Source: Thermosipho ferrireducens (GTDB lineage: Bacteria; Thermotogota; Thermotogae; Thermotogales; Fervidobacteriaceae). From it: a stretch of 64,000 nucleotides of DNA. The stretch is taken from positions 558,001 through 622,000 of the forward strand of contig NZ_CP071446.1 of NCBI RefSeq assembly GCF_017358165.1, given 5' to 3'. Position numbers and translations under genes: made by a program. Shown here piece by piece: positions 1,201-16,716 of the stretch. The notes beneath the pieces are model-generated. The model saw only the letters and a program-made list of their open reading frames with translations. It was not told where the DNA came from and made no database searches. Each line of letters opens with the position of its first letter. Within the stretch, counting starts at the first letter, position 1.

Positions 1201-1298
1201 TAATTTGGCTACTGTAACAGTCATTTTATAAAGAAAAAGAACAATACAGTAGTCAAAAAATGGTAAAATATAAATGGAACAAGAAAGGAGTGGAAAAC

Positions 1299-2522
1299 AT
1301 GGATATCATACCTGAGCTTGTTGGCATTCAAACAAATATAGCTAAAAAAGTACCACTAAAATTCAAAAGATATTTATATAAAAAAATCAATTGGGATTAT
1401 AATGTAATCACAATAATGGGAGCCCGTGGAACAGGAAAAACCACCATGGTACTCCAATACTATATAGAAAATATTAATCGTCCGGATAAGATGCTGTACA
1501 TTTCTGCAGATAATCCTCTTGTTCTTCGGGAAGGCTTATATGATATAGCAATGGAATATTTTAAGTATGGAGGCGAATCTTTAATTATTGACGAAGTTCA
1601 TAAATACCCCGACTGGTCTCTGCAAATAAAAGCTATCTGCGATGCTTATCCTGATAAAAAATTGATAATTTTAGGTAGTTCTAAACTTGAAATATCCACC
1701 CAGAAAGGAGATCTTTCAAGAAGAACTCTGGTTTATAATTTACACCCCCTTTCTTTCAGAGAATACTTAGAAATAATAACAGAAGAAAAGTTTGAAAAAA
1801 TAACACTGGAAGATCTATTAAATAATCATGTTTATTTTGCCAGTAAATTAACCAAAAAAGTAAAAAACATACTATTACATTTTAAAAACTTCCTTCGCTT
1901 TGGCTGTTTCCCTTTCTTTATTGGACTTAAAGAAGAAGACTATCACTCACTAACTCGAAACATCCTTGATAAGGTAATATACGAAGATATCCCCTCCCTT
2001 AAAATTTTAAAAAGCGAAACAATATTACCATTGAAAAAATTAATTGCTTTTATTGCAGATTCTAATATACCAACTTTCAGTGTTTCTTCAATTACTAAAG
2101 AATTGGGAGTATCAAAAGAAACAGTTTACGAACTGTTTGAACTTCTTCAAAAAGCAGATATTTTAAGAATCATTCGAACAAAAAGAGCGTCACTACGTTC
2201 AATAAAAAATGCCAAAATATTTTTCCTTTCCCCAAATTTCTACTATGCCATCATGAAAGAAAGATGGATCAGAAACCCGAAACCTGGCAACATAAGAGAA
2301 TCCTTCTTTGTATCACAATTAGAAAGTAAAAAATTATATATTCCACCATCGGGTGATTTCCTGGTAGAAGATAATAAAAAAGAATATATTTTTGAAATAG
2401 GTGGAAAAAGCAAAGGAAAAAAACAGATATCTAATCTGGAAAACGCATACATACTTCGAGATAATATTGAAATAGGTTTTGGTAATATAATACCACTCTA
2501 CCTTATAGGATTCTTGTACTAA
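1299..2522 (+). CDS. Orphan AAA ATPase, DUF4143 type
   Basis: A 407-residue P-loop ATPase. Walker A (GARGTGKTT) is near residues 41-49 and Walker B (LIIDEVHKYPDW) near 100. A central winged-helix-like stretch (TKELGVSKETVYELFELLQKA) follows, and the C-terminus has the DUF4143 look. An upstream in-frame ATG at 1260 falls inside the likely -10 region, so the start is taken at 1299, eight bases after AAGGAG. The gene stands alone between repeat clusters. DUF4143 ATPases are common orphan genes in thermophiles. A DNA-linked or defence role has been suggested but not shown. Confidence 0.85.
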   Translation: MDIIPELVGIQTNIAKKVPLKFKRYLYKKINWDYNVITIMGARGTGKTTMVLQYYIENINRPDKMLYISADNPLVLREGLYDIAMEYFKYGGESLIIDEVHKYPDWSLQIKAICDAYPDKKLIILGSSKLEISTQKGDLSRRTLVYNLHPLSFREYLEIITEEKFEKITLEDLLNNHVYFASKLTKKVKNILLHFKNFLRFGCFPFFIGLKEEDYHSLTRNILDKVIYEDIPSLKILKSETILPLKKLIAFIADSNIPTFSVSSITKELGVSKETVYELFELLQKADILRIIRTKRASLRSIKNAKIFFLSPNFYYAIMKERWIRNPKPGNIRESFFVSQLESKKLYIPPSGDFLVEDNKKEYIFEIGGKSKGKKQISNLENAYILRDNIEIGFGNIIPLYLIGFLY

Positions 2523-2856: not shown

Positions 2857-4206
2857 ATGTTTATTAATAGGGATAAAGAAAAAAATTTTCTCAGAAGAAA
2901 ACTTTCCAGCAAAAGGTCTGAATTGTTAATAATTTATGGTAGAAGACGCGTTGGTAAAACTTTCCTTCTTGAACATGTGATTAAAAACGGTCTTTTCTTC
3001 ACCGCTGATCTTTCAGGGAGCGTTCCACTAATGAACAGATTCTTGAACGAAATAAAAGAACTTATAAATCTTCCTGAAAGTTTGAAAATTAACTCATGGG
3101 AAGAATTCTTTTCCTTTTTAGACATGGCAATCAACACCAGAAAAATCAATACCGTTGTTATTGATGAATTTCAATATATTCCATATAAAGACGATTCTTT
3201 TCTATCCATATTTCAAAGATGGTGGGACAAAAATTTTTCAAAAAAAGACGTAAAGTTTATTCTGTGTGGTTCATACAGTGGAATGATAGAAAAAATAGCA
3301 CTTTCACAAAACAGCCCAATATACGGTCGCAGAACAGGCCAATACAAAATATTACCAATGAATTTTGAAGATTCTGTGAAATTTTTTAATTTCGATTCGA
3401 AGCAAGATTATGTTCTTGCTTACAGCGTTACAGACGGTGTCCCCCTGTATCTTCTTGAATTTTCAAAATACACCAACTTTTTTGATGCTTTAAAAGAAAA
3501 AATATTAACTCCGGGAGAATTTCTTGTAGAAGAGGGGAAATTCCTGACTCTTGAAGAGTTTAAAAAAGACCCATCAAATTACTTTTCCATATTAACCGCC
3601 ATAGCAAACGGAAAAACAACCCCAAATGAAATAGCAAACGAAAGTGGCATGGAATATAAAAGCATAGGTACCTACCTTTCAAGGCTCCTTGAACTTGAGC
3701 TTATAAAAAAAGAACAACCATTTTCATTAAAAAAAGCTAAGAAAAAAGCGTTTTATTACATTAATGATGAATACCTGAGATTTTATTTCCGCTACATTTA
3801 TCCCCACCAGGAAATGATATATCGAGGCCTTGGCAGCAAACTTCTTGAAAAAATAAAAACAACCCTTTCACAGCATGTTTCTTTTACCTTTGAAAAAATT
3901 TCAAAACAATATTTTGAAAAACATACTGGTATTGAAAAAGCTGGAAGATGGTGGGGAGCTGGAAATGAGATAGACATTGTTGGTGTTAAAGATAATACCT
4001 TATATGTTGGAGAATGCAAATGGACAAACAAGAAAATAGATGGAAAGATTTTGAACAGTTTAAAAAGAAAAATACCTTACCTTCTAAAAGACCTCGAATA
4101 TGAACCGGTAAAAATCATCTACTACCTATTCTCAAAAAACGGATTTGAAGGATTAAAAGAAAGTGATGATGTAAAACTTATAACATTAGACAATATAATT
4201 CACTAA
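2857..4206 (+). CDS. Archaeal-type ATPase with C-terminal DUF234 nuclease-like domain
   Basis: A 449-residue protein. The N-terminal Arch_ATPase domain has Walker A GRRRVGKT at residues 28-35 and Walker B TVVIDEFQYI near 98. A winged-helix-like segment (NEIANESGMEYKSIGTYL) sits near 250. The C-terminal DUF234 region carries GNEIDIVG...YVGECKW, the E-x-D...E-x-K pattern of PD-(D/E)XK folds. The start is fixed by GAGGTG just upstream of ATG 2857. The gene is monocistronic. Such archaeal-type ATPases are widespread in hyperthermophiles without known function. The nuclease-like motif is intact, so a DNA-processing role is possible. Confidence 0.85.
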   Translation: MFINRDKEKNFLRRKLSSKRSELLIIYGRRRVGKTFLLEHVIKNGLFFTADLSGSVPLMNRFLNEIKELINLPESLKINSWEEFFSFLDMAINTRKINTVVIDEFQYIPYKDDSFLSIFQRWWDKNFSKKDVKFILCGSYSGMIEKIALSQNSPIYGRRTGQYKILPMNFEDSVKFFNFDSKQDYVLAYSVTDGVPLYLLEFSKYTNFFDALKEKILTPGEFLVEEGKFLTLEEFKKDPSNYFSILTAIANGKTTPNEIANESGMEYKSIGTYLSRLLELELIKKEQPFSLKKAKKKAFYYINDEYLRFYFRYIYPHQEMIYRGLGSKLLEKIKTTLSQHVSFTFEKISKQYFEKHTGIEKAGRWWGAGNEIDIVGVKDNTLYVGECKWTNKKIDGKILNSLKRKIPYLLKDLEYEPVKIIYYLFSKNGFEGLKESDDVKLITLDNIIH

Positions 4207-4795
4207 TCAACCCTCGCTAAATACAAGATTCCTCGCCTTCTACGCTCCTCGGAATGACATAAAAAGAGAGTGTCATCCCGAACGAATGTGAGGGATCTTA
4301 TTCCTTATTGTCATTCCGAACGAACGTGAGGAATCTTAATCTTTTCCCCAACCCTCGCCAATCTTGCTAACTCTCGCCAATTATAAGATTCTTCGTCGTT
4401 TCACTCCTCAGAATGACAGAGAAACAAGATTCCTCGTCGCTAACGCTCCTCGGAATGACACATTTCGGGGATGCCAATCTCGTCAATTAAGATTCTTCGC
4501 ACTCCGTGCTCAGAATGACAAAAAAAGGATGTCATCCCGAGGAATATTCCTCTTTTGTCATCCCCTTTCTCCTTTTTTGTCATCCCGAGGAACGAAGTGA
4601 CGAGGGATCTTATTCCTTATTGTCATTCCGAACGCATGTGAGGAATCTTATTTTTTTTACTAACCTCGCTAACCTCGCCAATCTTGCTAACTCCGCCAAT
4701 TATAAGATTCTTCGTCGTTTCACTCCTCAGAATGACAGAGAAACAAGATTCCTCGTCGCATGCGCTCCTCGGAATGACGTAGGAAGGGGCCAACC
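4207..4795. repeat. Long palindromic-repeat cluster
   Basis: About 590 bp of alternating palindromic units (GTCATCCCGAGGAA..., AAGATTCCTCG...GGAATGACA, AAGATTCTTCG...AGAATGACA) and CTCGCYAAY nonamer runs. Short open frames here translate to runs such as LANLANLANSAN, which come from the 9-bp repeat and are not genes. Confidence 0.85.
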
Positions 4796-4812
4796 TTCCA
4801 AATGAAGCACAT

Positions 4813-4870
4813 GTCACAGCTGTCACACAGTATAGACAATTGTCACACAAGTCACACAACGTGGTATAAT
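4813..4870 (+). promoter_or_regulatory. GTCACA array (9/20/9 spacing) over the promoter
   Basis: GTCACA occurs at 4813, 4822, 4842 and 4851, giving start-to-start spacings of 9, 20 and 9. The -10 TATAAT is at 4865-4870. The GTCACA at 4842-4847 sits exactly where a -35 would lie, with a 17-bp spacer. A protein bound here would compete with RNA polymerase. A second array of the same geometry lies beyond the gene at 6075. Confidence 0.65.
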
Positions 4871-4907
4871 AAAATCGAACATCAAATCTATCACAGGTGG
4901 TGAAACT

Positions 4908-6071
4908 GTGAAAAAGAGTAAAATAAAAGAAATTCTCCAGGCTCTTTTTGACGCCCCTTTATCATCCAGAAATTTACTTGTTGATAGAAAAGAAGAAATA
5001 AATTTTCTCAATACAATATGCTCTTTTCAGCCTTTAGGTGTATATGGTGTATGTGGTGAAACTGGTGTTGGAAAAACAACATTATTAAACTTTCTTGATC
5101 CCGGTGAAGGAAAAAGAATTTACCTGAAACTTACGGAAAAAGAAAACAAAGAAGTAATAATCGGTGATATGTTATATAAACTTGCCAAAGAGGTAGAAAA
5201 ATACGAAAAACCAGAGCTCTCGAAAATCGCTAAAGAATCAATAGAATTTGTTATCGAAGAAAGAAATATAACCAATTCTGTGGGAGCAGGTGGCGGCGTT
5301 ATTGTCAGCGGAAATTTTTCTAAAAGCACAACTCGTATAAAAAAGTTTAATATCTATCAAGCTTACGATTTGTTAGACAGCATCCTTAATCTATTACTTA
5401 AAAAGTATAAAAGAATAGTACTGATTATAGACGAACTTGACAAAGAAAAAAAAGAAGAAGTACTAATGATTCTGGATTCACTCAAAAGTATATTCGACAA
5501 AAACAACCTGGTAGTAATATTATCTCTTCCATTTGCAATATACCGGGAATATACAAAAGATAGACTAAGATGGAACGAATCTGGAAATTTAGAAAACATT
5601 TTAAAAGACGTTCTCTTTTTAGAACCTTTGAGCGACAGGCAAATTCAAGAAATGATTATGAAAAGATTAGAAAAATACCCCGATTTTTTCGACAGCGATA
5701 CGTTATATGAAATAGCAAAATACAGCGATGGTAATCCAAGAGACGCTCTATGGATCTCTCAACAAATTGTTCTGGATAATCTTGACCTGGAAAGAATAAC
5801 GGGCAAATCTGCTACCGAAACTCTTAAAAAAATTACTAAAAAATATTTTGAAAGCTCACTGGATTTAACCGAAATTCAGGAAAAAGTACTAAATGTAATA
5901 GCAAAATACAGCGGGAGCAGGAACGAGCTGGTAAAAAAATTAGAAAAAGAGGGGATAAAAAGACAAACAGCATACACCTATATAAATCGATTAAAAGAAA
6001 ATGGATTAATACTCGAAAGAAACGGAAAATTAAAAGTTTCCGGTAAGATACTTTATATCATATCTAACTAA
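4908..6071 (+). CDS. ORC/Cdc6-like AAA ATPase with C-terminal winged helix
   Basis: A 387-residue protein that starts at GTG 4908, with AGGTGG at 4895-4900. Walker A is GETGVGKTT near residue 47 and Walker B is IVLIIDELDKE near 170. A sensor/lid region (YSDGNPRDAL) resembles sensor 2 of ORC/Cdc6-type AAA proteins. A C-terminal winged helix follows (VLNVIAKYSGSRNELVKKL...RQTAYTYINRLKENGLI). It differs from the DUF4143 neighbours because it has no nuclease-like tail. GTCACA arrays of the same geometry flank it on both sides, so it may bind DNA there and regulate itself. The family resemblance is seen in the sequence. A replication or regulatory role is inference. Confidence 0.75.
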   Translation: MKKSKIKEILQALFDAPLSSRNLLVDRKEEINFLNTICSFQPLGVYGVCGETGVGKTTLLNFLDPGEGKRIYLKLTEKENKEVIIGDMLYKLAKEVEKYEKPELSKIAKESIEFVIEERNITNSVGAGGGVIVSGNFSKSTTRIKKFNIYQAYDLLDSILNLLLKKYKRIVLIIDELDKEKKEEVLMILDSLKSIFDKNNLVVILSLPFAIYREYTKDRLRWNESGNLENILKDVLFLEPLSDRQIQEMIMKRLEKYPDFFDSDTLYEIAKYSDGNPRDALWISQQIVLDNLDLERITGKSATETLKKITKKYFESSLDLTEIQEKVLNVIAKYSGSRNELVKKLEKEGIKRQTAYTYINRLKENGLILERNGKLKVSGKILYIISN

Positions 6072-6074
6072 ACA

Positions 6075-6118
6075 GTCACAACTGTCACACGTTGTAGACA
6101 ATTGTCACATATGTCACA
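6075..6118. promoter_or_regulatory. Downstream GTCACA array, same 9/20/9 geometry
   Basis: GTCACA occurs at 6075, 6084, 6104 and 6113, with spacings of 9, 20 and 9 as in the upstream array at 4813. The central block tagacaattgtcaca is shared. The array begins four bases after the stop codon of the ATPase, where no promoter is needed for it. Confidence 0.7.
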
Positions 6119-6124
6119 ACCAAT

Positions 6125-6278
6125 CTCTGCCAACTACATTCCCTGTCATCCCGAACGAATGTGATGGGGATATCATCCTGAGGAGTGTGAAGGCGAAGGA
6201 TCTTTTCCCTATTGTCATTCCGAGCGAAGCGAGGAATCTTATTTTTTTTACTAACCTCGCCAATCTCGCTAACTCTCG
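6125..6278. repeat. Palindromic repeats and nonamers
   Basis: Repeat units (GTCATCCCGAACGAATGTG..., GTCATTCCGAGCGAAGCGAGG...) are followed by nonamers that run up to the stop codon of the reverse-strand vapC remnant. Confidence 0.8.
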
Positions 6279-6671
6279 CTAACTTTTACCTGGCATGATT
6301 CTTCCCAGTGTAGTCTTATCAAAATCAGCATCGTAACTGACAATTTTAAGTTCTAAGCTTTTTGCCAGATAATATTGGTAAGAATCATCGAAATCAAGAT
6401 TATAATGTTTTGAAATCTCAAAAAGCTTTGGAAGGTCATCCAGGCCAACTTCAACAATATTAAATTCTTTTATAACATCGATAAAAACACGAAATTCCCT
6501 TTCAAGATTATAACGACTGAAAATTATTCAAATAGAATAAATCGTGAACAAACTTATAAACAATTTTTCGCAGGGAATCTCTTTTAAAAATTTCTCTATA
6601 TCTTCAGCATGTGTTCCATTTGTCATATATTCAATTAGAATGTTTGTGTCCAGGAGATATCCTTTCACCAC
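6279..6671 (-). pseudogene. VapC-type PIN toxin with an in-frame stop
   Basis: The reverse-strand frame from GTG 6671 encodes a PIN domain. KGYLLDTNILIEY carries the first catalytic Asp, and DFDDSYQYYLA and SYDADFDK carry the later acidic residues. The frame stays the same throughout, but codon 48 is TGA (6528-6530), in FTIYSI-stop-IIFSRY. A single G-to-T change from GGA would explain it. The total of about 130 codons is the usual VapC length. It overlaps the antitoxin gene by about 40 bp, as in an active vapBC operon. It was probably inactivated recently, because no other damage is visible. Confidence 0.85.
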
Positions 6672-6864
6672 CTGTCCCCCATTCCAGCACTTTATGTTGA
6701 AGTTCAACCGCGTTAAAATCACTGATTTTACCTGCGATTATGCCTCTGATTTTTTTAAGTGAATTCTTTCGTTTTCTTTCTTTTGCAAGAAGAAAGTCAA
6801 CAAAATCTTCTACTTCTTTTCTTTCCATTGTAGAAAGCCGATTTATCTTTTCTATTAAATCCAT
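6631..6864 (-). CDS. VapB-like antitoxin (DUF2281 type)
   Basis: A 77-residue protein read from ATG 6864, with AGGTGG just upstream. The N-terminal part (MDLIEKINRLSTMERKEVEDFVDFLL) is typical of small DUF2281/VapB antitoxins. The C-terminal half would bind the toxin. The next gene on the strand is the broken PIN toxin, which starts inside this gene. The antitoxin is intact although its toxin has a stop codon, which fits loss of the toxin first. A longer frame upstream (start 6909) is possible but lacks a good ribosome site. Confidence 0.75.
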   Translation of the reverse strand: MDLIEKINRLSTMERKEVEDFVDFLLAKERKRKNSLKKIRGIIAGKISDFNAVELQHKVLEWGTGGERISPGHKHSN

Positions 6865-6954
6865 TAACTTCACCACCTTTAAATATGGCTCTTTTACTAT
6901 TTTCCTCAAAAATATTGTACCATAATACCATCCTCATAGTCATCCTGAGAAACA

Positions 6955-7440
6955 CCATCAAGAAGAGGGATGTCATCCCGAGAAATATTCCTCTTTTGTC
7001 ATCCTGAGGAATATTCCTCTCTTGCCATCCCCTTTCTCCTTTTTTGTCATCCTGAGGAGCGTAGCGACGAAGGATCTTTTCCCTATTGTCATTCCGAGCG
7101 AAGCGAGGAATCTTATTCCTTATTGTCATTCCGAACGTACGTGAGGAATCTTATTTTTTACTAACCTCGCCAACTCTCGCTAACTCTCGCCAATTATAAG
7201 ATTCTTCGTCGTTTCACTCCTCAGAATGACAGAGAAACAAGATTCCTCGTCGCTAACACTCCTCGGAATGACACATTTCGGGGATGCCAACCTCGTCAAT
7301 TAAGATTCTTCGCACTCCGTGCTCAGAATGACAAAAAAAGGATGTCATCCCGAGGAATATTCCTCTTTTGTCATCCCGAGGAACGAAGTGACGAGGGATC
7401 TTATTCCTTATTGTCATTCCGAACGTACGCGAGGAATCTT
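6955..7440. repeat. Palindromic-repeat cluster
   Basis: About 490 bp of palindromic units and nonamers. Part of it (from about 7195 to 7345) repeats almost exactly the order of units seen at 4380-4530, so repeat blocks are copied as composites, not only as single units. No gene seen. Confidence 0.85.
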
Positions 7441-7443
7441 GTT

Positions 7444-7492
7444 GACTAAATTGGGCCTTATTTAGTCACCATCATGACAAATATGTTATAAT
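7444..7492 (+). promoter_or_regulatory. Promoter with GACTAAAT/ATTTAGTC dyad
   Basis: A perfect 8-bp inverted repeat (7444-7451 and 7460-7467, 8-bp loop) lies upstream of an extended -10 (TGT-TATAAT, 7484-7492). It probably controls the ATPase gene at 7526. It is unrelated in sequence to the operators of the other ATPases. Confidence 0.55.
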
Positions 7493-7525
7493 AAACACTG
7501 TCAGTGAATTTTCGGAGGTGTTATT

Positions 7526-8914
7526 GTGGATTTTTCATTTATTCAACGGCAAAATCCATGGTGGAAAGATAAAAATTCAATACACTTTGATATGCATATA
7601 AAAAGTTTTGTAAAAAGCAGTTTTAAACACGTCCCCGCATTCATGGAAAAACTTGAAAAATTCAAAGAAGGAATTTACGTGCTTAGAGGCCCCAGGCAAA
7701 TAGGCAAAACAACTATTTTAAAATTGTTAATAAAGAAGCTTATAGACTCCGGGAAAAATCCCATAAACATTTTTTATGCCTCACTTGATATGGTAAAAGA
7801 TGCCGAAGGACTATTAAGATTAGCACTTGATTATTTTGATTTTGCTGAAAGCTTTGGTAAAACAGCAGATAATAAAACTTACATTTTTTTTGACGAAATT
7901 TCAAGTGTTAAAAGCTGGCAATTTGCTATAAAACATCTTTATGACACGGGGCTTCTAAAAAACGCTTTCGTTGTTTTAACAGGTTCCTCCTCTTATGATT
8001 TAAAAAATTCAATAGAAAGACTTCCCGGAAGAAGACAGGCGGGCTTTGACATTATCTATCTTCCTGTAACATTCAGAGAATTTGTAGAGCAAAGACACAA
8101 AGTAAATATACAATACCAATTTAAAGATTTATTTTCTGCCAGTGAAAAAGACCTAAGAAAAATAGTACTTCAACTTTCAATGTATAAAAATGAATTTACC
8201 GCATATCTAAATTCAGGAGGCTTCCCCAAAGTTATTAACGATTACCTTGAGAACGGATTAATAACAATAGAAACATTAAAAACATACAGCGACTATTTAT
8301 ACGGAGATATAGAAAGATTTAAAAGATCAAGATTTATAATGAACCAATTACTATTTGAAATCCCAAAATTAATAGGTCAGAGATTCTCGTGGAATTCACT
8401 TGCAAATAGTATCGAAGGAATCAACTCCAAAAATACTATAGAAGATTATATACAATTACTCGGCATGAACTTCCTCATTGGCACACTATTCTTCTATGAC
8501 TTTTCAAAAAATTCAATAAAACCAAAAAAGCAAAAGAAAATATACCCGGTTGACGCAATAATCACCAGAGTCATTGAACATATAACAGGTCATCAAATAC
8601 AAGTTCCAACACAAATTGAACAAATTGTTTTTACCCATTTATTGAAATTCTCAAAAGACTTTTCCAGCGGCCTGGTTCTCTATTCAGGACCATATTTCTG
8701 GTATTCTCAAAAAGGCAAAGAAATAGATTTTCTTATAAAACAAAATGGAAAAGTTATACCAATAGAAATTAAATATCAAACCAAAATCTCTCCCTCAGAC
8801 TTTTTTACAATGAAAAAAGTATTTGGAAAAGGCATTTTAGTAACTAAAAACACAACATTCAGAGCAGAAAACATCATAGCCATCCCTATTGAAACATTTC
8901 TATTACTTATCTAA
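7526..8914 (+). CDS. Orphan AAA ATPase with DUF4143 nuclease-like C-terminus
   Basis: A 462-residue protein that starts at GTG 7526, five bases after GGAGGTG. Walker A is RGPRQIGKTT near residue 53 and Walker B is TYIFFDEISSVKSW near 130. An LTGSSSYDLK sensor-like motif and RLPGRR follow. The C-terminal part has GKEIDFLIKQ...VIPIEIKYQ, an E-x-D...E-x-K PD-(D/E)XK-type signature typical of DUF4143. It stands alone between repeat clusters. It is longer than the other two DUF4143-type ATPases here. The function of the family is not established. Confidence 0.85.
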   Translation: MDFSFIQRQNPWWKDKNSIHFDMHIKSFVKSSFKHVPAFMEKLEKFKEGIYVLRGPRQIGKTTILKLLIKKLIDSGKNPINIFYASLDMVKDAEGLLRLALDYFDFAESFGKTADNKTYIFFDEISSVKSWQFAIKHLYDTGLLKNAFVVLTGSSSYDLKNSIERLPGRRQAGFDIIYLPVTFREFVEQRHKVNIQYQFKDLFSASEKDLRKIVLQLSMYKNEFTAYLNSGGFPKVINDYLENGLITIETLKTYSDYLYGDIERFKRSRFIMNQLLFEIPKLIGQRFSWNSLANSIEGINSKNTIEDYIQLLGMNFLIGTLFFYDFSKNSIKPKKQKKIYPVDAIITRVIEHITGHQIQVPTQIEQIVFTHLLKFSKDFSSGLVLYSGPYFWYSQKGKEIDFLIKQNGKVIPIEIKYQTKISPSDFFTMKKVFGKGILVTKNTTFRAENIIAIPIETFLLLI

Positions 8915-9345
8915 CCTCGCTAATCTCGCTAAATACAAGATTCCTCGTCGCATCCGCTCCTCGGAATGACACATTTCGGGGATGCCAACCTCGTCAATTA
9001 AGATTCTTCGCACTCAGTGCTCAGAATGACAAAAAAAAGGATGTCATCCTGAGGAATATTCTTCTCTTGTCATCCCGAGGAATATTCCTCTTTTGTCATC
9101 CTGAGGAACGAAGTGACGAGGGATCTTATTCCTTATTGTCATTCCGAACGAAGTGAGGAATCTTATTCCTTATTCTTCATTTTTTGTCATTCCGAACGAA
9201 GTGAGGAATCTTGTTTTTTTTACTAACCTCGCCAATCTTGCCAACTTTTGCCAAATACAAGATTCCTCGCCTTCTACGCTCCTCGGAATGACACAGGAGG
9301 GGGATTCTTCGCCCCTTGCGCTTAGAATGACAAAAAAGGGTGGTG
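8915..9345. repeat. Palindromic repeats and nonamers
   Basis: Repeat units start right after the ATPase stop and end about 80 bp before the next gene. Both polarities of the palindrome are present, with nonamers at 8914-8935 and 9222-9250. No gene supported. Confidence 0.8.
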
Positions 9346-9426
9346 AAATAACATGGGACACACTCTTACTGACCTTATGCTATAATATGAGGGAAATAGA
9401 AGATTTATATGCCTGGAGGTGTTTTA

Positions 9427-9654
9427 ATGTCGAAAGAAAAACTACTTGAAAGAATAGAAACAAGGAGAGACGTACTTGGAGGAAAACCGATTATAAAAGG
9501 AACAAGAATACCAGTTGAATTAATATTAAAACATATAGCAAATGGCTGGGAATTCGAAAAAATCTGCAACGAATACGGTCTGGAAAAAGCTGATATAAGA
9601 GCAGCAGTACTATACGCTGAAAAAGTCCTCGAAGGCGAGGAGGTTTTTATTTGA
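9427..9654 (+). CDS. DUF433 antitoxin-like protein
   Basis: A 75-residue protein. The start is ATG 9427, served by GGAGGTG; an in-frame ATG at 9409 precedes that site. The sequence RDVLGGKPIIKGTRIPVELILKHIANGW is the hallmark of DUF433, a small helix-turn-helix-like family. The promoter has an extended -10, TGC-TATAAT, at 9378-9386. The stop codon overlaps the start of the following DUF5615 gene by four bases, so the two are translationally coupled. DUF433/DUF5615 pairs are thought to be toxin-antitoxin modules, and this gene would be the antitoxin. Confidence 0.85.
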   Translation: MSKEKLLERIETRRDVLGGKPIIKGTRIPVELILKHIANGWEFEKICNEYGLEKADIRAAVLYAEKVLEGEEVFI

Positions 9655-9995
9655 AATTCATAACAGATGAAAACATTCCAAAAAGCATAGAAACCTTCCT
9701 TAAAAACCTTGGATATAACGTTGAAAGTATCAGAAACATTTGCAAAGGCGCAACAGACGATGAGGTCATGAAACTAACAGCAGAACATCTGGCAATACTT
9801 GTAACTTCAGACAAAGACTTTGGAGAATTAGTATTTCGATTTGGAGAAAAAATACCAGGTATTATTCTTTTAAGGGTAAATGATATACTAAAGTCTCAAG
9901 AACTTCTAAAAAAAGTACTTAAAGAACAAAAAGAATTGACAAATAAATTCATAGTTATTACTGAAAAAGGATATAAGATCAGAAAAATGTATTAA
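9651..9995 (+). CDS. DUF5615 PIN-like toxin candidate
   Basis: A 114-residue protein that starts at TTG 9651 inside the stop region of the DUF433 gene. MKFITDENIPKSIETFLKNLG has the conserved D-E-N near the N-terminus. TSDKDFGELVF supplies the other acidic residues of the PIN-like fold, and GIILLRV is typical of DUF5615. The likely role is an RNase-type toxin paired with the upstream DUF433 protein. Activity in this family is largely predicted from fold. Confidence 0.8.
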   Translation: MKFITDENIPKSIETFLKNLGYNVESIRNICKGATDDEVMKLTAEHLAILVTSDKDFGELVFRFGEKIPGIILLRVNDILKSQELLKKVLKEQKELTNKFIVITEKGYKIRKMY

Positions 9996-10012
9996 ATAAG
10001 TCCCTTATTCTT

Positions 10013-10140
10013 TTACTAACCTCGCCAACCTCGCTAATCATAAGATTCCTCACCCTTCGGGTTTGGAATGACACAGAGGGAGAATCTCTTGCTAATCTTG
10101 CGAAATTCTTTGGCACTAACGTTTCTCAGGACAGGCCTTG
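10013..10140. repeat. Short palindromic-repeat patch
   Basis: Nonamers (taacctcgccaacctcgc) followed by one unit of the CACCCTTCGGGTTTGGAATGACA variant and degraded pieces. A promoter-like TATTATATGGTATGATAT lies just before the next gene. Confidence 0.7.
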
Positions 10141-10195
10141 CCAAGCATGCTATTATATGGTATGATATATAGTAGGATATTTAGGGGGCGATATT

Positions 10196-10474
10196 GTGCG
10201 TTATGTAAATAGTAAAGAATTACGATCTAACCCTGCGATCTTGTGGAAAGATGAGGAAACTATTATAACTGTAAATGGAAAACCTGTTGCTGTGGTTACC
10301 CGCATTGATGGTGATCCAGAAAATACTCTACTTGCATTAAAACAAGCAAAAGCAATGATTGCTGTTGAAAAAATTCGCCTTATTTCGAAGCAAAAAAGAT
10401 TAGATAAAATTTCTGACGAAGAAATCAACCAGGTAGTAAAGGAAGTTAGAAATGAAAACAAAAGTAGTCGTTGA
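10196..10474 (+). CDS. Phd/VapB-like antitoxin
   Basis: A 92-residue protein that starts at GTG 10196 after a GGGGGCG ribosome site. MRYVNSKELRSNPAILWK...ETIITVNGKPVAVV has the form of Phd/YefM-type antitoxins: an N-terminal DNA-binding fold with a conserved VNGKPVAV strand. The charged C-terminus would bind the toxin. The following PIN gene starts 23 bp inside this one. A long antitoxin-toxin overlap of this kind is typical. Confidence 0.8.
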   Translation: MRYVNSKELRSNPAILWKDEETIITVNGKPVAVVTRIDGDPENTLLALKQAKAMIAVEKIRLISKQKRLDKISDEEINQVVKEVRNENKSSR

Positions 10475-10856
10475 TACTAACGTAATTGTTTCAGGTTTAA
10501 TAAAACCCAATAGTACTCCCGCGAAAATTTTAAATTTAATTCTCTCGGGGGAATTTACAATTTGTGCCGATAGTAGAATAATTAGCGAATACAACGAAGT
10601 TCTTCTAAGGGACAAATTTTCTTTTCCAAAAGATCTCATTAATGACTTTATTTCTTACCTAAAGTCTGTATCTATACTTGTATCACCACCTTCACTCCCA
10701 ATTAAATTAACAGACTCCGGGGATCTTCCTTTTATTGAAGTGGCATATTATCTGAATATCCCAATAATAACCGGAAACACAAAACACTTCAAGAGCCTCA
10801 AAAATATTAAAATATTCACACCTGATGAATTTATCAAAATTTATAAGAAAATTTGA
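10452..10856 (+). CDS. PIN-domain toxin (COG1569-like)
   Basis: A 134-residue protein. KVVVDTNVIVSGLIKPNSTPAKIL is the N-terminal PIN motif with catalytic Asp. SEYNEVL and DSGDLPFIEVA carry the middle acidic residues, and ITGNTKHF is the fourth motif. This matches the putative toxin-antitoxin PIN family (COG1569), which are predicted Mg-dependent RNases. All key residues are present, unlike the vapC remnant at 6279-6671. It is coupled to the upstream Phd-like antitoxin. Confidence 0.85.
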   Translation: MKTKVVVDTNVIVSGLIKPNSTPAKILNLILSGEFTICADSRIISEYNEVLLRDKFSFPKDLINDFISYLKSVSILVSPPSLPIKLTDSGDLPFIEVAYYLNIPIITGNTKHFKSLKNIKIFTPDEFIKIYKKI

Positions 10857-10904
10857 GTAAACTCTTGCAAGACCGTTCATTCGTGAAACGAAAGAGTATC
10901 ACTT

Positions 10905-11515
10905 TTTACCAACTTTCGCAAGATCCTTCGTCGTTTCACTCCTCAGGACAGGCCTTGCCAACTTTTGCCAAATACAAGATTCCTCGCCTTCTACGCTCCT
11001 CGGAATGACAGAAAGGGTAAGATTCCTCACCCTTCGGGTTCGGAATGACAAAGGAAAAAAAGGTCATCCTGAGGAATATTCTTCTCTTGTCATCCCGAGG
11101 AACAAAGTGACGAGGGATCTTTTTCCCTATTGTCATTCCGAGCGAAGCGAGGAATCTTATTCTTTTACTAACCTCGCCAATCTCGCTAATCTTGCCAACC
11201 CTCGCCAATTACAAGATTCCTCGTCGCTAACACTCCTCGGAATGACATAAAGAGAGAGTGTCATCCCGAGGAACGAAGTGACGAGGGATCTTATTCCTTA
11301 TTGTCATTCCGAACGAATGTGAGGAATCTTATTTTTTTTACTAACCTCGCCAATCTTGCCAACCCTCGCCAATTACAAGATTCCTCGTCGCTAACACTCC
11401 TCGGAATGACATAAAGAGAGAGTGTCATCCCGAACGAATGTGAGGGATCTTTTTCCTTATTGTCATTCCGAGCGAAGCGAGGAATCTTATTCTTTTACTA
11501 ACCTCGCCAACCTCG
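10905..11515. repeat. Long palindromic-repeat cluster with tandem duplication
   Basis: About 600 bp of repeat units. The block at 11160-11330 (nonamers, AAGATTCCTCGTCGCTAACAC..., GTCATCCCGAGGAAC...) is repeated with small changes at 11340-11490, a local tandem duplication of a composite unit. No gene seen. Confidence 0.85.
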
Positions 11516-11550
11516 CTAAATATGGTATAATTCACTCGAGGTGAAATTTA

Positions 11551-11790
11551 GTGTTAAAGTGGACCGAGCATGCTCTTGAAAATCTCAAAAGCAGAGGAAT
11601 ATCCAAAAAATTAGTTGAAGAGATATTAAAGAATCCCGATGAAATAGTGACGGGAAAGTATGGAAGGACCATTTACCATAAACTTATAGGAAACAAACTT
11701 ATGAGAGTTATCACCGAAAATAACTTAATAATTACGGTGTATTATACTTCCAGGGTAACAAAATACTGGAAAGGAGGTAAAAAAGAATGA
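11551..11790 (+). CDS. DUF4258 protein, toxin candidate
   Basis: A 79-residue protein that starts at GTG 11551, seven bases after GAGGTG. WTEHALENLKSRGISKKLVEEILKNP and the C-terminal VITENNLIITVYYTSRVTKYW match DUF4258, a small fold related to RelE/BrnT-like RNases. It overlaps the next gene by four bases (ATGA). The -10 TATAAT is at 11526-11531. With DUF2283 it forms a common two-gene module, probably a toxin-antitoxin pair, though this is less established than vapBC. Confidence 0.8.
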   Translation: MLKWTEHALENLKSRGISKKLVEEILKNPDEIVTGKYGRTIYHKLIGNKLMRVITENNLIITVYYTSRVTKYWKGGKKE

Positions 11791-11999
11791 AAATCAGGTA
11801 TTCAAAAGAAGTTGATGCTCTTTATATAAGACTTAACGAAAATAAAATAGTAGATTCGGATGAAATAAATGAAAACATAATAGTAGATTATGACGCTCAG
11901 GGAAATATAGTAGCAATAGAAATACTTCACGCTTCTGACAAAGTAGACATAGATGAAATATTTATTAGAGCACTTCCAAAAGTATTGGTAGAAACATAA
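11787..11999 (+). CDS. DUF2283 protein, antitoxin candidate
   Basis: A 70-residue protein. MKIRYSKEVDALYIRL and IIVDYDAQGNIVAIEILHAS are the defining strands of DUF2283. It overlaps the DUF4258 gene by four bases and shares its ribosome site (GGAGG). It is likely the antitoxin partner. Confidence 0.8.
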   Translation: MKIRYSKEVDALYIRLNENKIVDSDEINENIIVDYDAQGNIVAIEILHASDKVDIDEIFIRALPKVLVET

Positions 12000-12398
12000 A
12001 TAGATCTGCCGCTCACCTATTGATTGTTTTAAATATCTATCTTAGCATTTCAAACATTATTTCTTGTTATTATGAACATATCTTCTTTTCCCGGTCATCC
12101 CAAAATCCCACTTTTTTATTGTCATCCCGTCCTTCTTTCCTGTCATCCCGAGGACTATTCCTCTCCTGTCATCCTGAGGAATATTCTTCTTTTGTTTGTC
12201 ATCCCGAGGAATTTTCTTCTCTTGTCATCCCGAGGAACGAAGTGACGAGGGATCTTTCTTTTTTGTCATCCTGAGGAGCGCCAGCGACGAAGGATCTTTT
12301 TCCTTATTGTCATTCCGAACGTACGTGAGGAATCTTAATCTTTTCCCCAACCCTCACCAACCCTCACCAACCCTCGCCAACCTTGCTAACTCTCGCCA
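12000..12398. repeat. Repeat cluster at left edge of the glycan island
   Basis: The first 90 bp are AT-rich without a gene. Then palindromic units (GTCATCCCGAGGAAT..., GTCATCCTGAGGAGC...) follow, and nonamers run up to the promoter at 12399. This is the last repeat cluster before a 31-kb stretch that has none. Confidence 0.8.
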
Positions 12399-12418
12399 AC
12401 ATATGTTATAATATATGT
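12399..12418 (+). promoter_or_regulatory. Promoter of the glycan operon in an ACATAT/ATATGT dyad
   Basis: ACATAT (12399-12404) and ATATGT (12413-12418) form a perfect inverted repeat around an extended -10 (TG-T-TATAAT, 12404-12412). It lies 33 bp before the first glycan gene and is the only clear promoter seen for the first operon block. Confidence 0.55.
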
Positions 12419-12451
12419 AAAATAGAATTAATTTTCACCTGGAGGATGAGC

Positions 12452-13702
12452 ATGAAAATCATAAAAATAATCTCCTTCATTGATATTTTCTTGATATTCC
12501 TTTTAAATCATTTCATAACCTCTACCATATTTACAGGAGCCTTTCTTTCGTTTATAATATGGTTGGGAATATACGCTTTCAGAGTATACGATCCAGATTA
12601 TCTAAAAGAATACAACGAACAACTAATAAGAACCTTTGCAGGAATCATAATAGGCTTCATTGGAATCTTGGTTTTCTATCCAATATTTGAAAGCGTATTA
12701 AACCGCTGGTTTTTCATATACAACGCTTTTATCCTGATTATAGTAATCCCTGTATTACATAAAATAGAGTTTTCTATTTTAATGAAAAACATACCCCAGA
12801 AGAAATACCTTGTAATAGGAAAAAAAGAAGAACTAAAAGACATACTAAAAGAAATCGAAGAAAAATCACAGGGAAAACTTAAATTTGCAGAATTTCTAAA
12901 CCCAACGCCAGCATTATTAACACAAAAAATTAACCAATACGACGCGCTCCTTGTTGCTGACCAGGAACTTGAAAAACATGTGGAAGCAGAAATAAACGAA
13001 CTAAAAGAAAAATTTGAAATAGAATATCTCCCAAACCTTGTTGAACACACGTTAAAAAGAATACCAATAAAAGTTGCATTAAAATTCAAAGAATACTATG
13101 AAATAGCATTTCAAAATACAAAAGAATCACCAGCAAAAAGAATACTTGACTTCTTTGTATCAATAATAGGCTTAATAATATTTTCTCCTTTCATGCTAAT
13201 AACAGCAATTGCAATATTAATAGAAGATGGAAGACCAGTTGTTTTTAAGCAGTTGAGGGTTGGGAAAAACAATAAACACTTTACACTTATAAAATTTCGA
13301 AGCATGAAAAAACAAAAAAAAGATAAAGCAAAATTTGCAGATCAAGAACAGGATAGAATATTAAAAATTGGCAGGATAATCAGACCGCTTAGAATAGACG
13401 AATCATTACAATTTATAAACATCTTAAAAGGTGATATGAGCATCGTTGGACCAAGACCAGAGCAAATACCCTTTGCCAGACAATTTGAAAAAGAAATAGC
13501 ATTTTATTCACAAAGGCACCATGTAAAACCAGGCCTTACCGGCTGGGCACAAATAATGTATAAATACGCATCCAATACAGAAGAGATAAAAAAGAAATTA
13601 AGCTATGACCTATGGTATGTAAAAAACAGAAACATCCTCCTGGATTTAAAAATAATACTTCAAACAATAGAAGCTGTGTTCTGGAAGAGGGGAGCGAAGT
13701 GA
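12452..13702 (+). CDS. Polyprenyl-phosphate sugar-1-phosphate transferase (initiating enzyme)
   Basis: A 416-residue membrane enzyme that starts the lipid-linked glycan by moving a sugar-1-phosphate to undecaprenyl phosphate. The N-terminal half has several hydrophobic segments (residues about 5-110) and a cytoplasmic CoA-binding-like domain. The C-terminal WbaP/PglC-type catalytic domain shows KRILDFFVSIIG, GRPVVFKQLRVG, FTLIKFRSM, LRIDESLQFINILKGDMSIVGPRPE and KPGLTGWAQI, all signature motifs. GGAGG lies six bases before ATG 12452. It heads the operon and overlaps the next gene by four bases. Its 3' part is copied, truncated, at 27596 and 31905. Confidence 0.92.
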   Translation: MKIIKIISFIDIFLIFLLNHFITSTIFTGAFLSFIIWLGIYAFRVYDPDYLKEYNEQLIRTFAGIIIGFIGILVFYPIFESVLNRWFFIYNAFILIIVIPVLHKIEFSILMKNIPQKKYLVIGKKEELKDILKEIEEKSQGKLKFAEFLNPTPALLTQKINQYDALLVADQELEKHVEAEINELKEKFEIEYLPNLVEHTLKRIPIKVALKFKEYYEIAFQNTKESPAKRILDFFVSIIGLIIFSPFMLITAIAILIEDGRPVVFKQLRVGKNNKHFTLIKFRSMKKQKKDKAKFADQEQDRILKIGRIIRPLRIDESLQFINILKGDMSIVGPRPEQIPFARQFEKEIAFYSQRHHVKPGLTGWAQIMYKYASNTEEIKKKLSYDLWYVKNRNILLDLKIILQTIEAVFWKRGAK

Positions 13703-14481
13703 ATAAAACTTTAAAAGTAAGTATAATAACAGTCACCTATAATGCTGCAGAGTTTTTAGTTGATGCTATTGAAAGTGTAAGAGCTCAAACTTATGAAAAT
13801 ATAGAGTATATAATTGTAGATGGTGATTCGAAAGACGGCACTCAGGACATTATACAACAGTATTATAGACGAGGAGTTATAACAAAATACATAAGTGAGA
13901 AGGACGACGGTATATATGATGCAATGAACAAAGGCATAGATTTAGCAACAGGTGATATAATTGCTTTTTTGAATTCTGACGATTTTTACGTAGATAAATA
14001 CGTAATTTCTGATGTTGTTTCAACTTTCATTAACAGCAAGTTAGATGTAGCTTATGGAAATGTGATCTACGTTTCAAGAAAAAATATTAAAAAGATTATT
14101 AGATACTGGAAAAGTGGCGAATTTAGGAAAAATAAAATAGCAACGGGATGGCAAATACCACACCCTGCTTTGTTCGTAAGAAAAACCGTACTAAATAAAG
14201 TTGGCAAGTTTGATACGAAATATAAAATAGCGTCTGATTACGATTTTATGCTTAGAATTGTTATGAGAAGTGATGTTAACATTCAACATATAAATAGAGT
14301 AATTGTTGCCATGAGATGGGGTGGAACAAGCACTAAAAGCTTCAAGAATATGCTAAAAGGTAATAAAGAAATTTTTGATACCTTGAAGAGAAATAATTTT
14401 GTGAAAATTCCTTTTAGTTTTTTTTTAGTAATGAGACTTTTTAAACGAGTTGCACAAATGATAGGAGGTTTAAAGAGTTGA
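13699..14481 (+). CDS. Family 2 glycosyltransferase
   Basis: A 260-residue GT2 enzyme. The GTG 13699 start overlaps the upstream stop, and GGGGAG precedes it. [14 protein letters not shown] opens the GT-A fold, [13 protein letters not shown] follows, and FLNSDDFY is the DxD-like metal site. [10 protein letters not shown] is the catalytic-base region. It resembles WcaA-type colanic-acid transferases. It acts at the cytoplasmic membrane face on the lipid-linked glycan. The donor cannot be read from sequence, although GDP-fucose genes follow directly. Its first 45 bases recur as a stub at 32429. Confidence 0.85.
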
Positions 14482-15644
14482 AGAAAAAAGCCCTAATTAC
14501 CGGTATCACAGGCCAGGACGGCTCATATTTAGCGGAACTACTTTTAGAAAAAGGATATGAAGTACACGGATTGATTAGAAGATCATCAACATTTAACACA
14601 AGAAGAATAGACCATTTATATAAAGATCCACATGAAGAGGGGGCAAGATTATTCTTGCATTACGGAGACATGACAGATTCAACAATGCTTGTAAACTTTA
14701 TTCAACAAATCCAACCAGATGAAATATACAACCTTGCTGCGCAAAGTCATGTAAAAGTATCATTTGAAATACCAGAATACACAGCAAACTCAGATGCATT
14801 GGGAACGTTAAGACTACTTGAAGCAATAAGGCTTCTCGGCTTAGAAAAGAAAGTAAAATTCTACCAGGCATCTACAAGTGAGCTCTTTGGAAAGGTGCAG
14901 GAAATCCCCCAAAAAGAAACAACACCATTCTATCCACGAAGTCCATACGCAGCTGCAAAATTATACGCATATTGGATAACAATAAACTACAGAGAAGCGT
15001 ACAATATGTTTACCTGTAATGGAATATTATTCAACCATGAATCAGAAAGAAGAGGCGAAACATTTGTAACAAGAAAAATAACACGAGCAGCGACAAGGAT
15101 CTTATTGGGAACACAAGAAAAATTATACCTTGGAAATCTAAATGCAAAAAGAGATTGGGGATATGCAAAAGATTATGTAAAAGGAATGTGGCTTATGCTT
15201 CAGCAGCAAGAGCCAGATGATTATATCCTTGCAACAGGTGAAACACATTCTGTAAGAGAATTCTGCGAAAAAACATTTGAAAACCTGGGAATAAAACTTG
15301 AATGGGAAGGAAAAGATATAAATGAAAAAGGAATAATTAAAAACATAGAAAAAGACAAATTAATAGACTTTGTAGAAAAAGTAAAACAAAGCCACCCGGA
15401 TTTAGAAAACTTTAAATTGAATCTTCAGCACCTAAAAAAAGGAAAAACAGTAGTAGAAGTAGATCCAAAATACTTCAGACCCACAGAAGTAGATATACTC
15501 TTAGGAGATGCAAGCAAAGCAAGGGAAAAACTTGGCTGGAAACCAGAAGTAACCTTTGACGAATTAATACAAAAAATGGTAAAATATGACTTGATGCTTG
15601 CAATAAAAGAAAAACACAGAAATGAAATAATAAAAGAAGGGTGA
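14478..15644 (+). CDS. gmd: GDP-mannose 4,6-dehydratase, copy 1
   Basis: A 388-residue short-chain dehydrogenase that converts GDP-mannose to GDP-4-keto-6-deoxymannose. [19 protein letters not shown] is the NADP-binding glycine motif. [36 protein letters not shown] contains the catalytic Tyr-x3-Lys, and [16 protein letters not shown] is family-specific. The start is TTG 14478, with GGAGG upstream and a four-base overlap with the GT2 gene. Copies lie at 25607 (full, starting ATG) and 35211 (3' fragment). Copy 1 and copy 2 look identical over nearly all their length. Confidence 0.95.
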
Positions 15645-15651
15645 TCATAAA

Positions 15652-16716
15652 ATGGAAAAAGATTCAAAGATATACGTAGCGGGGCACAGAGGGCTTGTTG
15701 GTTCAGCTATTGTTAGAAAATTAAAAGAGCTTGGATATACAAATATAATAACAAAAACACATAAAGAACTTGACCTTACAGACCAAAAAGCAACAAGAGA
15801 ATTTTTTGAAAAAGAAAGGCCAGAATATGTATTTTTAGCAGCGGCAAAGGTTGGAGGAATACTTGCAAATAACACATACAAAGCAGAATTTATATACCAA
15901 AACATAATGATAGCTGGAAATGTAATAGAAGCATCGTATAGATACGGTGTAAAAAAACTTCTAAATCTTGGTTCATCATGTATATATCCAAAATATGCAC
16001 CACAACCAATGAAAGAAGAATATCTACTTACAGGAGAACTTGAACCAACAAATGAACCCTATGCGATAGCAAAAATCTCTGCAATAAAAATGGTAAGGTA
16101 TTTTAACGAGCAATACGGCACAAACTTTATAAGCGTAATGCCAACAAACCTTTATGGACCTAATGATAATTTTAATCTTGAAACATCTCATGTATTGCCC
16201 GCACTTTTGAGAAAATTTCATTTAGGAAAATTATTGATGGAAGAAAGATATGAAGATATAATAAAAGATGTAGAAAAGTATCCAATAGGATTTGGACTTG
16301 ATAAAGAAATAAATAAAGAAGATCCAAAGACAATAGAAAAGGTATTAGAAAAAGTAGGAATAACTAAAGAATCAATAACAGTATGGGGGACAGGAGAAGT
16401 ATATAGAGAATTTATGTATGTGGATGATCTAGCTGATGCTTGTATATATTTAATGAATGAAGTTGAAGCAGAAAAAATGAAAAAAATATCACCAGACTAC
16501 TTTGTAAACATAGGAACAGGAGAAGATGTAAAGATAAAAGATTTGGTAGAAATGATAAAAGAAATAGTGGGATACAAAGGAAAAATAAAATGGGATACAA
16601 GTAAACCCGATGGTACACCAAGGAAGTTATTGGATGTAACAAGGTTGAATAAACTGGGGTGGAGATATAAAATATCTTTGGAAATGGGAATAAAAATGTT
16701 AGTAAATAACATTTAG
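15652..16716 (+). CDS. fcl: GDP-L-fucose synthase, copy 1
   Basis: A 354-residue epimerase-reductase that makes GDP-L-fucose from the Gmd product. [14 protein letters not shown] is the nucleotide-binding loop and [15 protein letters not shown] the conserved active-site segment. [10 protein letters not shown] holds the Tyr-x3-Lys pair. The protein is about 35 residues longer than usual because of an insert ([20 protein letters not shown]...KVLEKVG). It lies eight bases after gmd. Two more copies exist: a truncated one at 26778 and a full one at 36536 with a different last 16 residues. Confidence 0.94.

Follow-up and report, generated by a model that had tools for sequence, protein, structure and literature searches.

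A candidate one-gene mobile unit in Thermotogota: an Orc1/Cdc6-like ATPase gene enclosed by direct repeat arrays

The ATPase gene lies between two arrays of equal geometry

Why should a bacterial ATPase gene be enclosed by two arrays of the same short motif when only one of them overlaps its predicted promoter? The question is raised by the window analyzed here, a stretch of 64,000 nucleotides from the genome of Thermosipho ferrireducens. An initial annotation, made from the letters alone, had suggested that the GTCACA arrays on the two sides of this gene may be binding sites, iteron-like repeats, or the ends of a mobile unit. All eight GTCACA hexamers that it listed (4813, 4822, 4842, and 4851 upstream; 6075, 6084, 6104, and 6113 downstream) were found on the + strand in the same 9/20/9 spacing, and the likeness that it noted between the two copies amounts to identity at 38 of 45 positions. 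Its geometry was right, and only the extent is revised: each array is 45 bp long and begins one base before the first GTCACA. The upstream copy also contains a degenerate middle motif near position 4831. The unit is ordered as array, promoter, gene, and array (Table 1).

The third GTCACA, at 4842, doubles as a –35 hexamer located 17 nt from TATAAT in a consensus scan that is weak when taken alone (8 sites in the region versus 5.3 expected). Because this hexamer scores as a –35 element, the predicted promoter begins inside the upstream array; the downstream array has no such overlap, in agreement with the earlier view that it plays no promoter role for the ATPase gene. GTCACA by itself is not rare, with 10 occurrences in the window versus a shuffle mean of 14.1. 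The four-copy pattern has exactly two matches in the 1,982,543-base genome, both flanking the ATPase gene, and the reversed pattern has none there. When three mismatches are allowed, the pattern is present in 12 of 103 Thermotogota genomes, and the reversed pattern gives zero matches across the same 103 genomes.

Table 1. Coordinates of the ATPase unit and of neighboring ATPase genes in the window
Feature	Position	Strand	Remarks
AAA_14 + DUF4143 ATPase gene	1260..2522	+	Best PADLOC model PDC-S01, defense candidate
ATPase_2 + DUF234 ATPase gene	2857..4206	+	Best PADLOC model PDC-S27, defense candidate
Upstream array	4812..4856	+	Motifs at 4812, 4821, 4841, and 4850; TGTCACA type, the last being AGTCACA
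Predicted promoter of the ATPase gene	4842..4870	+	–35-like GTCACA within the array; TATAAT at 4865-4870
Orc1/Cdc6-like AAA+ ATPase gene, predicted C-terminal winged helix	4908..6071	+	387 aa, GTG start
Downstream array	6074..6118	+	Strand and spacing as upstream; starts 2 bases past the stop codon
AAA_14 + DUF4143 ATPase gene	7526..8914	+	Best PADLOC model PDC-S01, defense candidate

The ATPase is predicted to adopt an Orc1/Cdc6-like fold

Residues 25 to 278 of the ATPase match the Pfam families KAP_NTPase (1.2e-10) and ATPase_2 (2.5e-9, above the ATPase_2 cutoff), and weak winged-helix matches lie at residues 317 to 374. A search by sequence for solved relatives returned none that were useful. 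An AlphaFold model built from a 25-row alignment has a pLDDT of 85.3 and a pTM of 0.80, with low confidence at residues 122 to 144. Its best fold match is archaeal Cdc6/Orc1 on origin DNA (2qby_A; Z score of 18.6 over 321 residues, RMSD of 8.0), and further matches are 7jgr_G (Drosophila ORC-Cdc6), 1w5t_A (Z score of 17.8), 2v1u_A (17.7), and 1fnn_A. The model has the AAA+ core, lid, and C-terminal winged helix of the Orc1/Cdc6 arrangement, consistent with the initial call of an ORC/Cdc6-like AAA protein with a winged helix. Against the curated orc1/cdc6 family TIGR02928, the ATPase scores 14.0 bits (cutoff of 181.3) and is not a member. Because 2qby_A is the best match and yet the TIGR02928 score is below the cutoff, the protein is described here as Orc1/Cdc6-like by predicted fold and as lying outside the curated sequence model.

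Lower fold matches are the archaeal ATPases 2qen (Z score of 16.4) and 2fna (14.8) of the ATPase_2 family, to which the Pfam match also points; unlike the present case, no association with arrays was found for ATPase_2 in the literature covered. They are followed by Tn7 TnsC (14.3), likewise an AAA+ ATPase of mobile elements and a lower match than Orc1. TnsC is a helper of a transposase, and the Tn7 ends are not known to be binding arrays of TnsC itself.

Paired arrays accompany the homologues and follow the protein clade

ATPase homologues are present in 37 of the 103 Thermotogota genomes surveyed (profile search, E value of 1e-15), with 38 intact copies; broken copies (the first copy of G089, and those of G028, G008, G051, G003, and G067) are left out of this count. 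Rather than lacking flanking arrays, 33 of the 38 intact homologues have recognizable ones on both sides, three of them with a weak or imperfect array (the first copies of G022 and G043, and G020). Three others have the upstream array only (G009, G030, and G100), one has an upstream array and a partial downstream one (G006), and the intact homologue of G054 has no array on either side. The classification is a by-hand count from local alignments of the flanks and from array models; an ungapped array finder misplaced arrays that are truncated or contain a one-base gap (G009, G011, G087, and G022), and those were judged from the alignments or models. In every paired element, the two arrays are direct repeats on the strand of the gene, and terminal inverted repeats are absent. 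In most elements, the downstream array begins within ~21 bases of the stop codon and is conserved as well as the upstream one, whatever gene comes next.

The letters of the arrays track the protein clade while the spacing stays nearly constant: GTCACA arrays accompany one clade, and TGTCGAG, TGTCGAA, and TGTCGGA arrays accompany the others. Arrays of the TGTCGA type consist of five in-register motif copies at steps of 9, 11, 9, and 9, and the GTCACA type has four motifs, with a degenerate but conserved TGTAGACA at the central position; spacing is shifted by one base in some members (G004, G011, G009, G087, G089, and G091). The predicted recognition helix reads KRQT..YTY in proteins with GTCACA arrays and KRTTAYS in those with TGTCGA arrays, a co-variation that would be expected of a protein and its own site. 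If this is true, the array classes, of which there are at least four, and the winged helices that go with them would form a natural code for how such a helix reads DNA.

Some sites with a single array correspond to sites occupied by the gene

The initial annotation had proposed a check of whether empty sites show one array, and such a site was found with base precision. G017 has the order array, gene, array; G002 has matching flanks, exactly one array, and no homologue in its genome. Their right flanks are alike at 92.7% over 3.7 kb and their left flanks at 83% over 114 bp, through and including the array. The single array of G002 is identical to the downstream copy of G017, with the change-over at the left edge, and part of a gene further left has also been lost in G002. 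Direct repeats of which one is left in the empty site, as with the att sites of integrase-type integrative elements, are seen at one exact locus.

Three further loci appear to support single-array empty sites, although less exactly. (i) Over the 1.5 kb compared, the right flanks of G090 and G087 are 90% alike from the array edge onward; to the left, the PDDEXK_9 AAA-nuclease gene of G090 is matched in G087 by what appears, judged by eye, to be a remnant of the start of that gene. At this locus, G088 (genus g20, which we take to be Marinitoga) has both outer genes, presumably bioY-like and pabA-like, joined in a plain junction with neither array or element nor PDDEXK_9 gene, and its intergenic DNA aligns too poorly to define a target duplication. 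(ii) G003 and G014 are alike on the left up to the array edge and on the right only as a common repeat. (iii) At the place where G024 holds the element, G034 and G037 each carry a single array next to the DUF4143 gene, and the right flanks match, though not base-exactly. Only G002/G017 is exact on both sides; the other empty sites have extra rearrangement beside the array, and no target duplication is definable at any of the compared sites, G002/G017 included. As for clean preinsertion sites, the flanks in genus g31 (presumably Mesotoga) are too repeat-rich, and genus g7 (presumably Thermotoga) yielded only the G034/G037 comparison.

Within 1.8 kb of each solo array, tblastn found no piece of the ATPase gene in 19 of 23 cases; this set leaves out the array of G009 (its own element), the two halves of the broken element of G028, and the array pair of G012. 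For the remaining four, the search met the intact element next door in G007 and G037, a real remnant at G003a, and a marginal match at G003c. Since tblastn missed a decayed gene start at G014p that is seen in the alignment, other decayed remnants may be missed as well. A solo array can equally be the scar of a plain deletion between direct repeats. One solo array, of the TGTCGAG type, lies 12 bases beyond the end of the window (G000:C1:622012-622057; L179 10013-10057); because the window's genome has no ATPase of the TGTCGAG class, it is probably the footprint of a lost element.

Arrays within an element resemble each other, and the gene has spread across families

Among six groups of related elements, five show paired arrays (41 to 45 of 45 positions) that are mostly closer to each other than to arrays of other elements; G000 and G017 (38 each), the truncated array of G022, and very close sister copies are the exceptions. 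The array pairs of G072, G078, and G079 match at 45, 43, and 45 of 45 positions, and these elements differ from each other by 3 to 4. Genus g7 is the group that departs from this. Five of its genomes retain the element with a common right flank (shifted by 0.6 kb in G037), which points to prolonged residence at a single locus, and the identity between upstream and downstream arrays there, 37 to 39 of 45, is below most values between upstream arrays (40 to 45). In G072, G078, G079, G038, and G043, the repeat extends into the promoter and the downstream promoter copy is altered or decayed, as would be seen if an earlier copy had left its left end on the downstream side.

The starred branches of a 36-protein tree require a minimum of five changes for family f1, five for f2, and three each for f3 and f9, and the second copy of G024 (f2) nests inside genus g7 of f3. 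The ATPase tree crosses bacterial families repeatedly, pointing to horizontal spread. Among 43 classed copies in 36 genomes (15 of broad class 1 and 28 of the rest, broken copies included and the G067 fragment left out), no genome doubles one broad class and seven hold one of each; under random placement on the 103 genomes with kinship ignored, P is 0.006 for none doubled and 0.024 for seven mixed.

A possible, if rather improbable, explanation is that the ATPase gene only regulates itself. The arrays would then be operators, the downstream one serving for looping, without movement of the gene in its own right; solo arrays would be occasional scars of direct-repeat deletion, and the spread would be ordinary horizontal transfer of the region. 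Such an account needs nothing beyond repeat deletion and ordinary transfer, and it would fit the –35-like hexamer inside the upstream array and the common right flank in genus g7. It also has a parallel in the Sulfolobales damage regulator Orc1-2, a non-initiator Orc1 relative that binds a motif at its own promoter (PMC9738581); unlike the unit here, Orc1-2 has a hexanucleotide motif, and flanking direct arrays are not described in the passages covered (PMC9738581). Against self-regulation stand the good conservation of the downstream array close behind the stop codon beside any next gene, the run-on and decayed promoter copies, which fit duplication upon integration better than a downstream operator, and the 19 solo arrays without a tblastn-detectable gene remnant.

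Arrays also adjoin AAA-nuclease and defense-like genes

DUF4143 domains, two of which lie near the unit in the window, are rare, with 14 across ten array-bearing genomes (0 to 3 in each). Of the 13 in the distance count, 11 are no farther than 6 kb from an array (0.19 expected) and 8 no farther than 3 kb (0.10 expected), in genomes picked for having arrays and with the 6-kb limit set after seeing the data. Both DUF4143 matches of the window's genome are within 6 kb of an array; the 14th domain (G014, on another contig and outside the distance count) is 1.6 kb from one by coordinates. G012 has two arrays around DUF234 and DUF4143 genes and no ATPase homologue, and one of these arrays sits between two convergent stops rather than at a promoter. 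A divergent DUF4143 gene is found 151 bases from the solo array in G034 and 180 bases from that in G022. In G003 (L084 12242-16276 and 3377-12286), arrays bound an AAA_15 gene, a DUF3226/OLD-TOPRIM-like gene, and a helix-turn-helix gene, together with a 1171-aa protein without a Pfam match, and these stretches look like defense modules. As the G012 and G003 arrangements show, the arrays bound other, defense-like genes as well, of which PADLOC rates the DUF234 and DUF4143 types as candidates only.

On such an arrangement, the ATPase could be a regulator or targeting partner of the DUF4143, DUF234, and PDDEXK_9 genes, with the arrays as operators or attachment marks of a defense-like island. The excess of DUF4143 genes near arrays, the ATPase-free arrays of G012, and the solo arrays beside divergent DUF4143 genes in G034 and G022 favor this role. 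However, none of the three gene types is present within 2.5 kb at 41 of the 62 sites or elements compared (where some flanks are short), the DUF4143 count is inflated by pairs that share ancestry, the 6-kb limit is post hoc, and the G012 array between convergent stops is not at a promoter, so that we consider the role distinctly unlikely. The link to AAA-nucleases could reflect a partner or merely a shared hot spot.

In G090, G022, and G024, no more than ~45 bases separate a GTCACA array from a PF09820/PDDEXK_9 AAA-nuclease gene (L190 3499-5058; L090 5705-7297; L093 5379-6971). A second repeat (~TTCGAATTTATCGA...TTCGATAAA) is found between the divergent DUF4143 gene and the TGTCGA array, just to the left of the array in L094, L164, L166, L168, L193, and L194. 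It may be the DUF4143 gene's own site; G027 and G029 have this second repeat without a DUF4143 gene.

It is very improbable that the unit is a passive passenger moved by a trans-acting transposase or integrase. Mobile units of ~1.3 kb usually need a recombinase, and none was found within this one: the notable domain matches are of AAA+ and winged-helix types only, with no transposase and no credible match to a site-specific recombinase or nuclease domain, and a Phage_int_SAM_5 match to the ATPase is at chance level (E value of 0.06, below the cutoff). This lack would suit a passenger, but the ends are direct 45-bp arrays rather than inverted repeats, and they have no definable target duplication.

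A proposed mobile unit of one gene and its cognate array

We favor, as fairly probable, a mobile one-gene unit of ~1.3 kb, in which an Orc1/Cdc6-like ATPase gene and its cognate array are gained and lost at arrays. Paired arrays of nearly constant geometry, clade-matched letters, an Orc1-like predicted fold, horizontal spread, and single-array sites are the sequence features that point to it; binding, pairing of arrays, circle formation, and replication are steps that we infer. Of the initial suggestions, ends of a mobile unit gains support from the two-sided arrays of most homologues and from the G002 site, and iteron-like is apt for the form of the arrays.

In the proposed mechanism, the winged helix of the ATPase would recognize its own 45-bp motif array, and binding at the promoter-side array would also control expression. 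The unit would be gained and lost when arrays exchange with each other: the order at an occupied site would be array, gene, array, and an emptied or not-yet-occupied site would have one array. If cut between the arrays, the unit could close into a circle of array, promoter, and gene, arranged like an initiator gene with its iteron or ORB origin beside it; the cutting and joining may be done by host recombination or by nearby AAA-nucleases. Such a transient circle seems the likeliest route of gain and loss, because haloarchaeal orc/cdc6 genes have family-specific ORBs and such origins apparently moved. Counting against a mobile unit are the lack of a recombinase inside it and the search of plasmid and phage records and viral contigs, which found neither ATPase homologue nor array, although a transient circle of 1.3 kb would hardly be deposited in databases. 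A bolder version, in which the unit is a self-propagating one-gene replicon whose array serves as origin, operator, and attachment site, and whose initiator pairs arrays and enters or leaves without a recombinase of its own, with exclusion within a class and with AAA-nuclease partners, seems doubtful.

The closest known parallel is found in haloarchaea, where orc/cdc6 genes have family-specific ORB repeats, which in occasional cases flank the gene on either side, and the modules appear to have moved (PMC3528665). As there, an Orc1/Cdc6-type AAA+ winged-helix protein stands beside its own repeats, whose letters follow the protein family, and cognate repeats adjoin the gene, here on both sides in most intact homologues. 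Unlike the haloarchaeal origins, the present unit is bacterial, it has a direct 45-bp array on each side instead of inverted boxes around an AT-rich element, and it has single-array empty sites; there is as yet no sign of replication from the bacterial unit. Like an iteron plasmid replicon, it has short direct repeats next to the gene of their presumed binder, and no genome was found with two of one class; unlike iteron plasmids, it has no extrachromosomal copy among the plasmid, phage, or viral records. An iteron replicon consists of an initiator gene plus iterons, with an initiator of the RepA type, compared with the Orc-like AAA+ protein here.

Searches of an open-license literature library found no description of an array-flanked Orc1-like unit. 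If the unit comes and goes and leaves one array behind, as related bacteria suggest, it would be a very small and apparently undescribed kind of mobile gene. An Orc1/Cdc6-type protein with its cognate boxes is a known archaeal and eukaryotic origin module; if the proposal is true, this module also moves among bacteria as a single-gene unit whose own binding array marks its sites, and the arrays would be linked to the AAA-nuclease-type genes (DUF4143, DUF234, and PDDEXK_9) that gather there.

Other repeats in the window

Although other repeats are abundant in the flanks, it is practically out of the question that the arrays are chance or members of the repeat family filling those flanks, since the pattern has two matches in the genome, its reversed controls are zero in 103 genomes, and it is conserved beside homologues. 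The genome-wide counts and reversed-pattern controls exclude chance, and the flank repeats are excluded as a source by the neighboring ATPases, which have other, common repeats here and none of their own in cleaner genomes. Rfam matched no known RNA at 4200-7600. Dense GTCATTCCGAACG...GAGGAATCTTA / CATCCCGAGGAA repeats surround the ATPase genes at 4220-4800, 6140-6300, and 6930-7450 and fill other intergenic stretches, and ~200 bp are duplicated on either side of both DUF4143 genes of the window. The GC skew turns from negative to positive at ~12 kb (window 8001-16000), where a run of polysaccharide genes on the + strand starts.
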